A DNA stretch of 64,000 bases from Cryobacterium luteum (lineage in GTDB: Bacteria; Actinomycetota; Actinomycetes; Actinomycetales; Microbacteriaceae), in the NCBI RefSeq assembly GCF_900110125.1, contig NZ_FOCN01000013.1, forward strand, positions 1 to 64,000, in the 5' to 3' direction. Position numbers and translations under genes: made by a program. How positions within the stretch are numbered: position 1 is the first letter of the stretch; each line of letters begins with the position of its first letter. Below, one piece after another: positions 16,085 to 20,299 of the stretch. Under the pieces are notes generated by a model. It was given only the letters and a program-made list of their open reading frames with translations, searched no databases and was not told where the DNA came from.

Positions 16085-17599
16085 ATGGCCAAGTATGTTC
16101 TCGCCATCGACCAGGGAACCACGAGCTCCCGCGCCATCATCTTCGACAAGGCCGGGTCGATCATCTCGACCGGGCAGCTCGAGCACGAACAGATTCTGCC
16201 GCAGGCCGGCTGGGTCGAGCACGACCCCAAGGAGATCTGGGACAACACCCGTGAGGCCATCGGGCAGGCGTTGTCGAAGGCCAACATCACCCGCCACGAC
16301 ATTGAAGCCGTCGGCATCACCAACCAGCGCGAAACCGCTGTCGTCTGGGACAAGAACACCGGCGTGCCCGTTTACAACGCCATCGTCTGGCAGGATACCC
16401 GCACCCAGTCGATCGTCGACCGCCTCGCGGCTGACGGCGGCGTCGAACGGTTCAAGAACAAGGTCGGCCTGCCGCTGGCCACCTACTTCTCCGGCACCAA
16501 GATCGTCTGGATTCTCGAAAACGTCGAGGGGGCACGCGAGAAAGCGGATGCCGGCGACCTCCTGTTCGGCACCACCGATTCCTGGGTGTTGTGGAACCTG
16601 ACCGGCGGCACCGAGGGCGGCGTGCATGCGACCGACGTCACCAACGCGAGCCGCACCATGTTCATGGACCTGGAAACCCTGCAGTGGGACGACGAGATCC
16701 TCGCCGTCTTCGACGTGCCCAGGTCGATGCTGCCCGAGATCAAATCGTCATCCGAGGTCTACGGCATTGCGAGCGGGCACAGCCTGCTGCGCGAGGTGCC
16801 GATATCCGGCATCCTCGGCGACCAGCAGGCGGCGACCTTCGGCCAGGCCGCCTTCGACCAGGGCGAGGCGAAGAACACCTACGGCACCGGAAACTTTTTG
16901 ATCTTCAACACCGGCACCGAGATCATCCACTCCAAGAACGGCCTGCTCACCACCGTGGGTTACAAGCTCGGCGATGCTCCGGTGCACTACGCGCTCGAAG
17001 GCTCGATCGCGGTGACCGGCTCACTCGTGCAGTGGATGCGCGACCAGCTCGGCATCATCAGGAACGCCTCCGAGATCGAAGACCTCGCCAAGACGGTCAC
17101 CGACAACGGCGGCGCCTACTTCGTGCCGGCCTTCTCCGGCCTGTTCGCGCCGTACTGGCGCTCCGACGCCCGCGGCGCCCTGGTCGGCCTCACCCGGTAC
17201 GTCAACAAGGGCCACATTGCCCGTGCGGCCCTCGAGGCCATCGCTTACCAGACCCGCGAGGTGCTCGACGCGGTCAACGCCGACTCCGGTGTGCCGCTGA
17301 CCGAGCTCAAGGTCGACGGCGGAGCCACGGCCAACGACCTGCTCATGCAGTTCCAGGCCGACATCATCGGCGTGCCGGTCGTGCGCCCGGTCGTTGCCGA
17401 GACCACCGCCCTCGGCGCCGCCTACGCCGCCGGCCTGGCCGTCGGCTTCTGGAGCGGCCTCGACGACCTGCGCTCCAACTGGCAGGAAGATGCCCGCTGG
17501 GAGCCCGCCATGGACAAGGAGGAGGCCGCCCGCCTGCTGCGCAACTGGAAGAAAGCCGTCACGAAGACCCTCGACTGGGTAGACGAAGACGTGCGGTAA
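16085..17599 (+). CDS. glpK: Glycerol kinase
   Basis: A 504-residue FGGY kinase that phosphorylates glycerol to sn-glycerol 3-phosphate with ATP. N-terminal phosphate-loop [18 protein letters not shown], conserved [11 protein letters not shown], the substrate region [11 protein letters not shown], the ATPase block [10 protein letters not shown] with KNTYGTGNF, and the C-terminal [19 protein letters not shown] are all intact. The ATG is preceded by AAAGGAG with ideal spacing. It completes the glpD-glpF-glpK set, and a GC-rich hairpin follows. Confidence 0.97.
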
Positions 17600-17626
17600 C
17601 CCGCACCAGACCGATCCGGCGTTACG

Positions 17627-17658
17627 GCCCGGCCCGCGCCTCTGCGCGGCCGGGCTTT
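17627..17658 (+). terminator. Rho-independent terminator after glpK
   Basis: GCCCGGCCCGCGC pairs with GCGCGGCCGGGC across a CTCT-type loop, with one bulged C, and is followed by TTTC. It lies 27 bases after the glpK stop. Confidence 0.75.
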
Positions 17659-17698
17659 CGGCATCGTCCGTGTTCCTCTCCTCGTGCGCACTCTCTCC

Positions 17699-17795
17699 GT
17701 GGCTAATTCAGGAAATCCGTTGGTATGGCGGCCGGTGGGCCGCGGATCTGCGCGGCCAGTTCCCTTCGACCCCGAGAATTTCCTGAATTGGCCAC
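17699..17795. repeat. REPIN-like palindromic unit 1 (97 bp)
   Basis: Left arm GTGGCTAATTCAGGAAAT (17699-17716) and inverted right arm (17776-17795, reading GTGGCCAATTCAGGAAAT on the other strand) enclose about 60 bp of GC-rich sequence unlike that in the other units. The 520-bp stretch from 17600 to the next gene holds only the glpK terminator and units 1 and 2; I see no coding region in it. Confidence 0.9.
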
Positions 17796-17915
17796 GGCAC
17801 GGGCGGGGAACCTCGGGGGACGTGCCGAGCGCCGCATCCGTTCACCCTGGCAAGTGCCAGGATCGGGCCTCCCGCGTGGGCCGGACGGCCAAGACCGGTC
17901 TGCACGAACCTGACG

Positions 17916-18002
17916 GGGGCCAATTCAGGAAATCCTCCTGCACACCGCCGAGCCAGTGCAGCGGACGTACCTGTGAAATCGAGAATTTCCTGAATTCGCC
18001 AC
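17916..18002. repeat. REPIN-like palindromic unit 2 (87 bp)
   Basis: Left arm 17916-17934 (GGGGCCAATTCAGGAAATC) and inverted right arm 17983-18002 (GTGGCGAATTCAGGAAAT on the minus strand). Same arm family as unit 1, with a central segment about 10 bp shorter, close to one helical turn. It ends 117 bp before the orphan gene. Confidence 0.9.
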
Positions 18003-18119
18003 GCTTTTCGGGTGCAACAGTGGGTTCTTAAGTTCTCCACAGGCACTGATTCGCGCGTCTGTCCACTGAAACATCCAGTCGCGGTTTCAATAGGCCCGTT
18101 GATTACCATGCTGGGTCCT

Positions 18120-19010
18120 ATGACATGGGAAGTGCTCTTTCACGAATCCGACCGGTCCGTCATCGAGACCGGTGAACTGCGGGCCGCCGGCGCGACGTGG
18201 AGGTCACTGAAGGCGGCCGTCGACAACGGTTTCCTGGTGCGCTGTCGCCGTGGGCGCTACGCGCTCCCCTCCACCAACCGTCACATTCTTGAAGCCGTGC
18301 GCGTCGGTGGCCGGCTCGGCTGCATATCCGCAGCTGCCGATATGGGAGTCTTTGCCCTCGACAGCAGCTCCACGCATGTTCATCTTGACCCGAATGCTTC
18401 GAGACTGCGCGCACCACAGGATCGCTTTCAGCGGCTCACTGTGGCGAACCGCAACGGTATTGAGTTGCATTGGGATCAACTTCTGGCATCCGAGGACGGC
18501 ACCGAATACAGCATCGGCCTAACGGATTCCCTAATCCAGATCTTCCGATGCCAACAACCACGATTTGCATTAGCCTCCCTCGACAACGCCCTGCATTTGC
18601 GTCTGCTGCCGAGCGAGGCCGTCGTGTTGATTTTCGCGGCCCTTCCCGAGGATTTACAGTATCTCCGTGCGTGGGTCGATGCGCGGAGTGAATCGGGCCA
18701 GGAGACGGTGCTGCGGTTCATCGTGCACCTTGCGGGGTTTCAGTTCGAAATTCAGGTGTCGATCAGCGGCGTGGGGCGCGTGGACATGGTCATAGAAGGA
18801 TGCCTCGTCGTCGAAGCCGACAGCCGACAGTTCCATGACGGCTGGGACGCGCATCTGCGCGACCGCACCCGTGATTGTGACCTCGCCGGCATGACCTATA
18901 TGAGTTACCGCGCCATCCACCGGGACATTTTCTACCACCCGGAGCGCGTCGTGGCGGCGATAACTGGACTCTTGGCCGTGCGCAATCACTTCCGTACATA
19001 CGTGCTGTAG
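18120..19010 (+). CDS. Orphan AbiEi-like / PD-(D/E)XK-type protein flanked by palindromic repeats
   Basis: A protein of 296 residues if it starts at ATG 18120 (MTWEVLFHES); ATG 18108 is also possible and neither has a clear ribosome binding site. The N-terminal third looks like the winged-helix domain of AbiEi-type antitoxins (LRAAGATWRSLKAAVDNGFL then VRCRRGRYALP). The C-terminal part resembles DUF559/Vsr-like nucleases: VGRVDMVIEG, VVEADSRQFHDGWDAHLRDR with the Asp and Glu-x-Asp spacing of a PD-(D/E)XK site, then a CDLAGMTYMSYRAI strand. No partner toxin gene lies beside it. It is less GC-rich than its neighbours. Two palindromic units stand on each side, the nearest 33 bp after its stop. 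Function unknown; nuclease activity is inference. Confidence 0.8.
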   Translation: MTWEVLFHESDRSVIETGELRAAGATWRSLKAAVDNGFLVRCRRGRYALPSTNRHILEAVRVGGRLGCISAAADMGVFALDSSSTHVHLDPNASRLRAPQDRFQRLTVANRNGIELHWDQLLASEDGTEYSIGLTDSLIQIFRCQQPRFALASLDNALHLRLLPSEAVVLIFAALPEDLQYLRAWVDARSESGQETVLRFIVHLAGFQFEIQVSISGVGRVDMVIEGCLVVEADSRQFHDGWDAHLRDRTRDCDLAGMTYMSYRAIHRDIFYHPERVVAAITGLLAVRNHFRTYVL

Positions 19011-19043
19011 CGAGCGGCGAATCGCCCAGCAGACCCCCGCCGC

Positions 19044-19140
19044 GTGGCCAATTCAGGAAACCCGTCAGTTCCGCGCACGGCCAGCCCCGTGTTTGCAGTG
19101 GTGGTTGCATTCGCTCACGCTACTCTCCTGAATTAGCCAC
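19044..19140. repeat. REPIN-like palindromic unit 3 (97 bp)
   Basis: Left arm GTGGCCAATTCAGGAAAC (19044-19061) and inverted right arm 19123-19140 (GTGGCTAATTCAGGAGAG on the minus strand). The pairing extends outwards through CCGCCGC and GCGGCGG. The centre is unrelated to units 1, 2 and 4. It begins 33 bp after the orphan gene. Confidence 0.9.
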
Positions 19141-19240
19141 GCGGCGGCTCGATGGTCGGCCTGCTTCGTGCTCGGTGGTGTGTGCCCGCAGTGTTCGGCT
19201 GTCGCGTGTCACCGCAGACGACGAATCGCCCCGGTGCGCG

Positions 19241-19337
19241 GTGGCTAATTCAGGAAGTCAGGAGCAGGCGTGGTCCACATCTCCCCAAGTTCCGGGGGCT
19301 TCGAGCGGCCAGCGCGTCGATTTCCTGAATTAGCAAC
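19241..19337. repeat. REPIN-like palindromic unit 4 (97 bp)
   Basis: Left arm GTGGCTAATTCAGGAAGTC (19241-19259) and inverted right arm 19319-19337 (GTTGCTAATTCAGGAAATC on the minus strand). Same length as units 1 and 3. The 387-bp stretch between the orphan gene and the HAD gene contains only units 3 and 4; I see no coding region there. Confidence 0.9.
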
Positions 19338-19397
19338 GAAACGACGCTTCTGACCCGGAGACGTGCGAGGGGGGACACCCGAGGGGTGATGACCGGG

Positions 19398-20299
19398 CTA
19401 TTGGCTGGTCAGGGCGAACGGCAAGTCGGCGAGGGTCCCTATTCGCAGCACTCCCAGGTGGGCCGCCTCGATTGAGTCGGCGCCGGTGGTCGGAGGGAGA
19501 CCCGTGGCTGCGCGCGGCGAGGGGATGGCAGACCCAGTTGGGGCAGCGGATGCGCCGGCGCGGTCCAGCCAGACCCCCGTCAGCCCCGCAGCGGCAGCGC
19601 CCACAGCGTCCGTGCGCAGCCGGTCCCCGACATAGACCGCCTCCGAAACCGGCACGCCGAACACGGCGCAGGCGTGCTCGAAGATGCGGGGGTCGGGCTT
19701 GGCGAAGCCGAGAGCACCCGAGGTGACGACGTGCTCGAACCGGTCGGTCAGGCCGACCCGCCGAATCTTCTCGCCCTGAAAGACCGGGTCGCCGTTCGTG
19801 ATGAGGCCGAAGCGTACCTCGGGCAGAAGCTGCGCCAGCGCGTCCAGGCAGGGGAGAGCGTCGTCGTGCAGGCGCCAGCTGGCCCGGTAGCTTTCGAAGT
19901 ACTCGTCGAACCAGGTATCGGCCTCGGCGTCGGTCAGCATGATGTCGAACGACGCCGCGAAATCCTGTGCCCGGGCGCGGCGTTGGCCGGCGAAGTCCAA
20001 CGATCCGGCGAGGTAGGAGTGGTAATGCTCCTCTTCGAGCGCATCCCAAAGCCCGGTCGCCGCGACCCGGTCGCCGGTCGCGAACGCGCCACCAACCCGG
20101 TCGAGGTGCAGCAGAATACCCGCCGCAACCGCACCCCGATGGGCGAACAGGGTGTCGTCGAGGTCGAACAGCACCACCGCCGGTTGGTGATGCCGCACAG
20201 CGTGCCGGACTGACGGATCCAATCCGGCAGAACCTGCGGTCTCCTGACCGGCCGCCACCGAAACCGGTACAAGCACCGGACCAGGCACAGAAACCGGCA

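Follow-up and report, generated by a model that had tools for sequence, protein, structure and literature searches.

The 64,000-nucleotide stretch of the Cryobacterium luteum genome (Microbacteriaceae; RefSeq assembly GCF_900110125.1, contig NZ_FOCN01000013.1, positions 1 to 64,000), here referred to as the window, contains a gene on the forward strand at 18120-19010 that is bracketed by four inverted repeat pairs, two on each side. The first unit (17699-17795, 97 bp) consists of the arms GTGGCTAATTCAGGAAAT (17699-17716, +) and GTGGCCAATTCAGGAAAT (17778-17795, -), the second (17916-18002) belongs to a shorter class of 87 bp, its spacing about one helical turn shorter than in the long class, with arms at 17916-17933 (+) and 17985-18002 (-), while the third (19044-19140; arms 19044-19061, +, and 19123-19140, -) and fourth (19241-19337; arms 19241-19258, +, and 19320-19337, -) each measure 97 bp. 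The sequence AATTCAGGA is identical in all eight arms. Allowing up to three mismatches, the chance expectation in the window is 0.04 arms, and 0 of 100 shuffled sequences reached eight. The observation made in the sequence-only reading, that eight arms in strict left-right alternation form four units around one gene, was therefore confirmed, although three of its right-arm starts were off by 1-2 bp and its statement that the centres of the units are unrelated requires correction, as the middle of many long units carries a conserved palindromic element. A scan of positions 17500-19500 against Rfam gave no match to a known RNA element at E<=1.

The gene encodes a protein of 296 amino acids, with the start codon assigned by homology (an in-frame ATG lies at 18108). 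Regarding the C-terminal part, Pfam profiles for the MTES_1575 nuclease (PF18741, E 9e-7) and DUF559 (PF04480, E 0.007) were matched, both below the curated cut-offs, whereas AbiEi models of PADLOC matched residues 10-61 weakly (best E 6e-5). In the AlphaFold model (mean pLDDT 92.8) the nearest solved folds were the AbiEi antitoxin 6y8q (E 9e-5, low overall TM), the putative endonuclease-like protein 3hrl (E 0.035, TM 0.75 by target length) and the catalytic domain of the Vsr-type homing endonuclease I-Bth0305I, 3r3p (E 0.05, TM 0.78 by target length), the latter two with weak E-values. The protein is thus predicted to combine an AbiEi-like DNA-binding part (residues 14-120, 18159-18479) with a PD-(D/E)XK nuclease part of the Vsr/DUF559/MTES_1575 type (residues 189-293, 18684-18998). 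In the latter, E195, D222, E232, D234, H239 and D248 are invariant in 23 of 23 aligned homologs, and a catalytic role of these residues is inferred. The MTES_1575 REase has been named as a Vsr-like nuclease domain in a study of conflict systems (PMC3710099), without mention of repeats in the relevant passages.

In the window, the gene is located between an FGGY kinase (glpK-like) gene and a HAD hydrolase gene followed by a class I tRNA synthetase gene, and among these three flanking genes, the only ones typed, no toxin partner of the AbiEii nucleotidyltransferase kind was recognised. Relatives of one or more of these genes lie near the gene in most of 40 named loci of homologs, including glpK- and trpS-like genes in many of them, while in three of these loci (L154, L157 and L165) it is elsewhere, so that the gene is mostly inherited in place. 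The possibility that gene and units constitute a defence or self-marking system, in which the nuclease cuts DNA at arms unless the host protects them, or in which the units titrate or license the nuclease against invading DNA, can draw on the Vsr-like nuclease part and its appearance among conflict systems, on the weak matches to AbiEi defence models, and on the change of arms between related species. However, no defence partner is fixed beside the gene, judging from the three genes typed in the window and their recurrence in many named loci, and this reading is considered very unlikely.

Repeat arms are not restricted to this locus. In the whole C. luteum genome (G000; 3.83 Mb, 73 contigs), 81 arms with up to two mismatches were detected, compared to none for a reversed control pattern. 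Of 39 listed pairs, 36 were judged to be units and three to be chance, and five further pairs carry a mismatch in the core, giving about 41 units at a few fixed spacings. On contig C30 of this genome (27755-27900; L017:3762-3890) four type-A left arms lie in direct tandem at 42-43 bp (about four helical turns), the last one being part of a normal 97-bp unit, with a type-B unit just beyond, representing a different higher-order form of the same arm. Across the unit-bearing regions examined, 88 of 91 units (a few being alternative pairings of the same arms) are intergenic, where a simple gene finder called 86% of the DNA coding, and 65 of 91 lie nearer a 3' end. Convergent gaps hold units in 24 of 29 cases, tandem gaps in 35 of 86 and divergent gaps in 5 of 39, noting that these regions were chosen because they contain units.

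The association of gene and repeats is general. In 93 loci of homologs from Microbacteriaceae (L009-L011 and L029-L118), the 500-bp flanks were examined for at least two inverted pairs of one 13-base word with a pair on each side of the gene. This criterion was fulfilled in 69 of 93 loci, with the remaining 24 failing it, in 0 of 465 shuffled flanks and in 0 of 161 other genes from the named loci. Leaving out the window's own locus, nine loci fetched because of units or already known to have units nearby, and one duplicate, the count is 61 of 82. A relaxed arm finder accepted 83 of 93 loci but included evident chance words, and the stricter criterion was therefore used. Of the 40 named loci, which overlap in species with the first set, 33 are two-sided with 600-bp flanks. 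Some genes are flanked by many pairs of one arm instead of one or two per side, as in locus L075 (10 pairs with the relaxed finder) and locus L093 (five with the stricter one). In a class-wide search, 49 of 246 genomes have a homolog at E<=1e-20; of 20 loci outside the family, 11 met the criterion, or 10 after discounting L140, in which one right arm was used twice, and in 9 of these 10 the spacing is equal on both sides, while 1 of 150 shuffles also qualified.

Arms differ between genes, examples being GTGGCTAATTCAGGAAAT in the window, GCATAACTCCTGCAAT, TTCGGAAATTCAGG, TTCATAACTCAGCCTG and TGCACAACGACGCCAATTCTG. Homologs 64-67% identical to that of the window (L149, L151-L154, L165) carry GTGGCTAAYTCAGGA, while two others in that range do not fit as neatly, as L157 (66%) has CGCTAACTCCGG and L150 (69%) has only one such pair; 22 of the 40 named loci, with 45-52% identity, carry AACTCCTGC arms. 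Over 69 loci, arm similarity follows protein similarity with a Mantel rho of 0.36 (0 of 999 permutations), the signal being strongest in residues about 31-115. The N-terminal half keeps a partial rho of 0.40 when controlling for the C-terminal half (0 of 999), whereas the reverse is 0.13 (4 of 999), which fits an AbiEi-like reader and a nuclease that does not choose the arm.

Regarding copy number, the exact type-A pair occurs in 48 and the type-B pair in 11 of 299 Microbacteriaceae genomes, the latter including the six genomes whose gene flanks showed AACTCCTGCA (G078, G141, G191, G239, G279 and G076). In G191, three nearly identical type-B units with similar spacers lie in local tandem (contig C96, 254957-255454), indicating recent local amplification. 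In a census of 57 Cryobacterium genomes, in which gene type was assigned by identity to the protein P0001 (61% or more, or 45-52%) and which was not corrected for phylogeny, type-A pairs had a median of 15 with an A-type gene (n=15) and 0 without (n=42; p 6e-5), and type-B pairs a median of 16.5 with a B-type gene (n=22) and 3 without (n=35; p 1e-6). Genome G583 has both gene types. Four gene-bearing genomes with a zero count have variant arms that the patterns miss, namely G576, G552, G582 and G583 (for the B-like gene of G583 this was inferred through locus L184, taken to be the same species). Exceptions remain, as G544 has 23 type-A pairs and G546 has 15 type-B pairs without a homolog at E<=1e-40. 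Three further genomes without a close homolog (G536, G537 and G574) still hold two to three perfect type-B pairs with diverged spacers, one of them in all three genomes at or beside an intergenic site considered below (site X); perhaps a weaker homolog reads the same arm, or that unit has a use of its own. The type-A pattern also catches a third family, as in genome G534 it finds units with AATTCAGGAGTTGAG arms and shorter spacing around a more distant homolog (36%; L265, contig C23, 409000-410800), so more than one gene-arm family coexists in one genome. The genome of C. luteum has an A-type gene, 27 exact type-A pairs and 11 type-B pairs, which is interpreted as a recent change of specificity.

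The two conditions under which the mobile-module idea had been said to fail, confinement of the arm to this locus or its equal abundance at random spacing in genomes lacking the gene, did not apply. The interpretation offered in the sequence-only reading, a REPIN-like mobile module whose functional link to the AbiEi/DUF559-like gene was stated as an inference, is partly supported: the link recurs in many genera with different arms and is stronger than could be seen from the locus, but the units are not REPINs in the strict sense and mobility is not proven. As in REPIN-RAYT (TnpA-REP) systems, extragenic inverted pairs are dispersed in the genome and found beside one linked gene, the repeat type is tied to that gene, and the gene is mostly inherited vertically (PMC3116915). 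However, the linked enzyme is of a PD-(D/E)XK type and not a HUH/Y1 transposase, the spacing appears to be phased to the double helix, and a central palindrome is shared between arm types. The RAYT/Y1 transposase profile PF01797 was not found in any of 10 unit-bearing genomes, while the control set gave hits in 5 of 14. The alternative that these are true REPINs moved by a hidden RAYT with the nuclease gene as a bystander, which the overall shape of the units would suggest, is contradicted by this result and by the observation that arms follow the nuclease, and was rejected. REP palindromes with a GTAG/CGTC-type tag (PMC3733652) form a small hairpin in each arm; in the present units the two arms of a unit pair with each other as single strands, unit 1 folding as ssDNA with z -5.3, so a hairpin form is not excluded.

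Core-to-core distances of 87 type-A units peak at 75-78 (59 units), 63-67 (19) and 53-56 (5), with four elsewhere. Within one locus and over all arm types, spacing differs by 0-3 bp (196 comparisons), 9-12 (33), 19-22 (8) or 40 (4), and never by 4-8 or 13-18; as some loci were included twice and the larger steps come partly from one array (L093), these comparisons are not all independent. This looks like helical phasing and points to double-stranded DNA held by protein at both arms. Nine dispersed type-B units of one length show TGCATAACTCCTGCAAATT arms and a CCCGGAATTCCGGG-like centre (CCCGnnATTnCGGG; positions 0.9 to 2.0 bits), while most spacer positions are at 0.1-0.5 bits. In gene-flanking long units the centre pattern, which was chosen after the motif had been seen, occurs in 15 of 37 units with AAYTCAGG arms, 5 of 18 with AACTCCTGC arms and 5 of 26 with other arms, against 1.4-3.1% in shuffles, whereas short units show no such common centre. 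Long units are thus tripartite, with a common centre between two gene-specific arms.

The AbiEi antitoxin binds paired inverted repeats in its promoter and bends DNA (PMC7319586), and together with the AbiEi-like fold, the weak AbiEi model matches and a unit ending 118 bp before the start codon this raises the possibility that the units are only operators through which the protein represses its own promoter, the dispersed pairs being further regulon sites or decoys. The AbiEi sites are, however, 23-bp repeats 3 bp apart at one promoter, whereas here arm cores lie about 55-77 bp apart and occur tens of times. The flank criterion itself shows units downstream as well as upstream of the gene, units genome-wide mostly lie nearer 3' ends and avoid divergent gaps, and operators alone would give no reason for an invariant nuclease site. 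This explanation is therefore regarded as improbable.

Turnover was examined at one intergenic site (site X) in 20 Cryobacterium genomes. An intact type-B unit is present in 11 of these, six with a B-type gene and five with no homolog at E<=1e-40. Intact type-A units occur only in G000 (two) and G566, the two of these genomes with an A-type gene, while decayed or half-decayed type-A units remain in G538, G550, G556, G575 and G543, none of which has an A-type gene. Four genomes (G567, G563, G564 and G193) have no intact unit, although G567, G563 and G564 have a B-type gene. In six aligned type-B units of one length the arms are 0.95, the centre 0.82 and the spacers 0.72 identical, whereas in three short ones the centre (0.67) is less conserved than the arms (0.94) and spacers (0.86). 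Turnover at this orthologous site shows loss and decay rather than clean insertion.

Similarly, no direct evidence of transposition was obtained. In 69 units no flush target duplication of 5 bp or more was found, direct repeats of four bases numbered 2 against 0.45 expected, and shared 5-mers within 12 bp showed only a weak excess (12 against 7.0, sd 2.3). A classical MITE with target duplication is therefore not supported; the units share with MITEs the short, gene-less form and inverted ends, but their internal sequence is mostly not shared and the linked gene is not a DDE transposase. In G534, the three most alike dispersed units (L256-L258, contig C21) sit at the end of a longer dispersed repeat with a shared left flank and were copied as part of it, and thus do not demonstrate unit-only movement; 33 of 294 dispersed pairs in this genome exceed the shuffled spacer score, but much of this can come from the shared centre. 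Units cluster around the gene in G168, G037 and G076 (medians 38, 18 and 188 kb against 910, 676 and 831 kb expected) but not in G021 (P 0.30). This test covered 13 of 18 positions in G168, where the five omitted lie beyond 1.8375 Mb so that its P is too good, 10 of 10 in G037, 13 of 14 in G076 and 7 of 8 in G021.

A further alternative is that the units are useful sites kept by selection on the host and do not spread, the protein being a domesticated AbiEi-like binder with a dormant or conditional nuclease that bends or loops DNA at 3' ends and convergent gene pairs, for example to insulate transcription or organise the chromosome. Conservation of site-X units across species, the preference for convergent over divergent gaps, the spacing steps and the retention of the gene beside glpK- and trpS-like genes are in line with this. 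Against it stand the invariant residues of the nuclease part, a copy number varying from 0 to 44 between species, the clustering of units near the gene in three of four genomes, the different arm specificities within one genus and the lack of a homolog at E<=1e-40 in 21 of 57 Cryobacterium genomes. This alternative appears unlikely, although it is the strongest of those considered.

The coupling of this nuclease family to its own dispersed two-armed units is well supported. The explanation favoured here, with moderate confidence, is that gene and repeats are one system, functionally analogous to RAYT and REPIN but run by an unrelated enzyme, a trans-acting nuclease that maintains and probably spreads its own two-armed sites. 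Comparison of genomes establishes that homologous genes mostly carry units on both sides, that arms follow the protein and chiefly its N-terminal half, that copy number follows the cognate gene, that units are mostly extragenic, that spacing changes in steps near one helical turn, and that the middle of many long units is a palindrome shared between arm types. Binding, cutting and movement, in contrast, are inferred. In this view, the AbiEi-like part would bind one arm per monomer, and two or more monomers would hold both arms in phase on double-stranded DNA, with the intervening DNA bent or looped, such that the nuclease parts meet at the central element and cut or nick it. Repair of the break would then copy or restore units through gene conversion, local duplication or occasional capture elsewhere, so that units with intact arms and correct phase persist and multiply, whereas old units would decay when the gene is lost or changes specificity. 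The units beside the gene probably also let the protein control its own expression. As with I-Bth0305I and DUF559 proteins, the enzyme gene sits among its own recognition-like sites, but it is not seen here as an intron or intein passenger and mostly sits at one locus, while small gene-less units are the dispersed part.

More tentatively, and with somewhat less than even likelihood, actinomycetes may carry a previously undescribed class of miniature replicators propagated by a homing-endonuclease-type PD-(D/E)XK enzyme, in which the unit would be a two-armed, helically phased double-stranded cleavage site with a common centre and a family-specific arm, spread by cut and repair, and in which gene and arm would escape together into new specificities, amounting to a second, independent origin of the REPIN way of life. 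No description of such a system was found in the literature searched, although preprints and most subscription papers were outside its coverage, so that absence from print is not proven. As far as is known, REPIN-RAYT is the only well-studied case of bacterial repeats that persist for very long times beside a single linked gene, for reasons that remain open. A second system with an unrelated enzyme, apparently double-stranded sites and changing specificity gives an independent replicate and would show which features are general. It also offers a function for a widespread protein group, with homologs at E<=1e-10 in 198 of 299 Microbacteriaceae genomes, and 69 natural reader-arm pairs from which a DNA-recognition code could be read.
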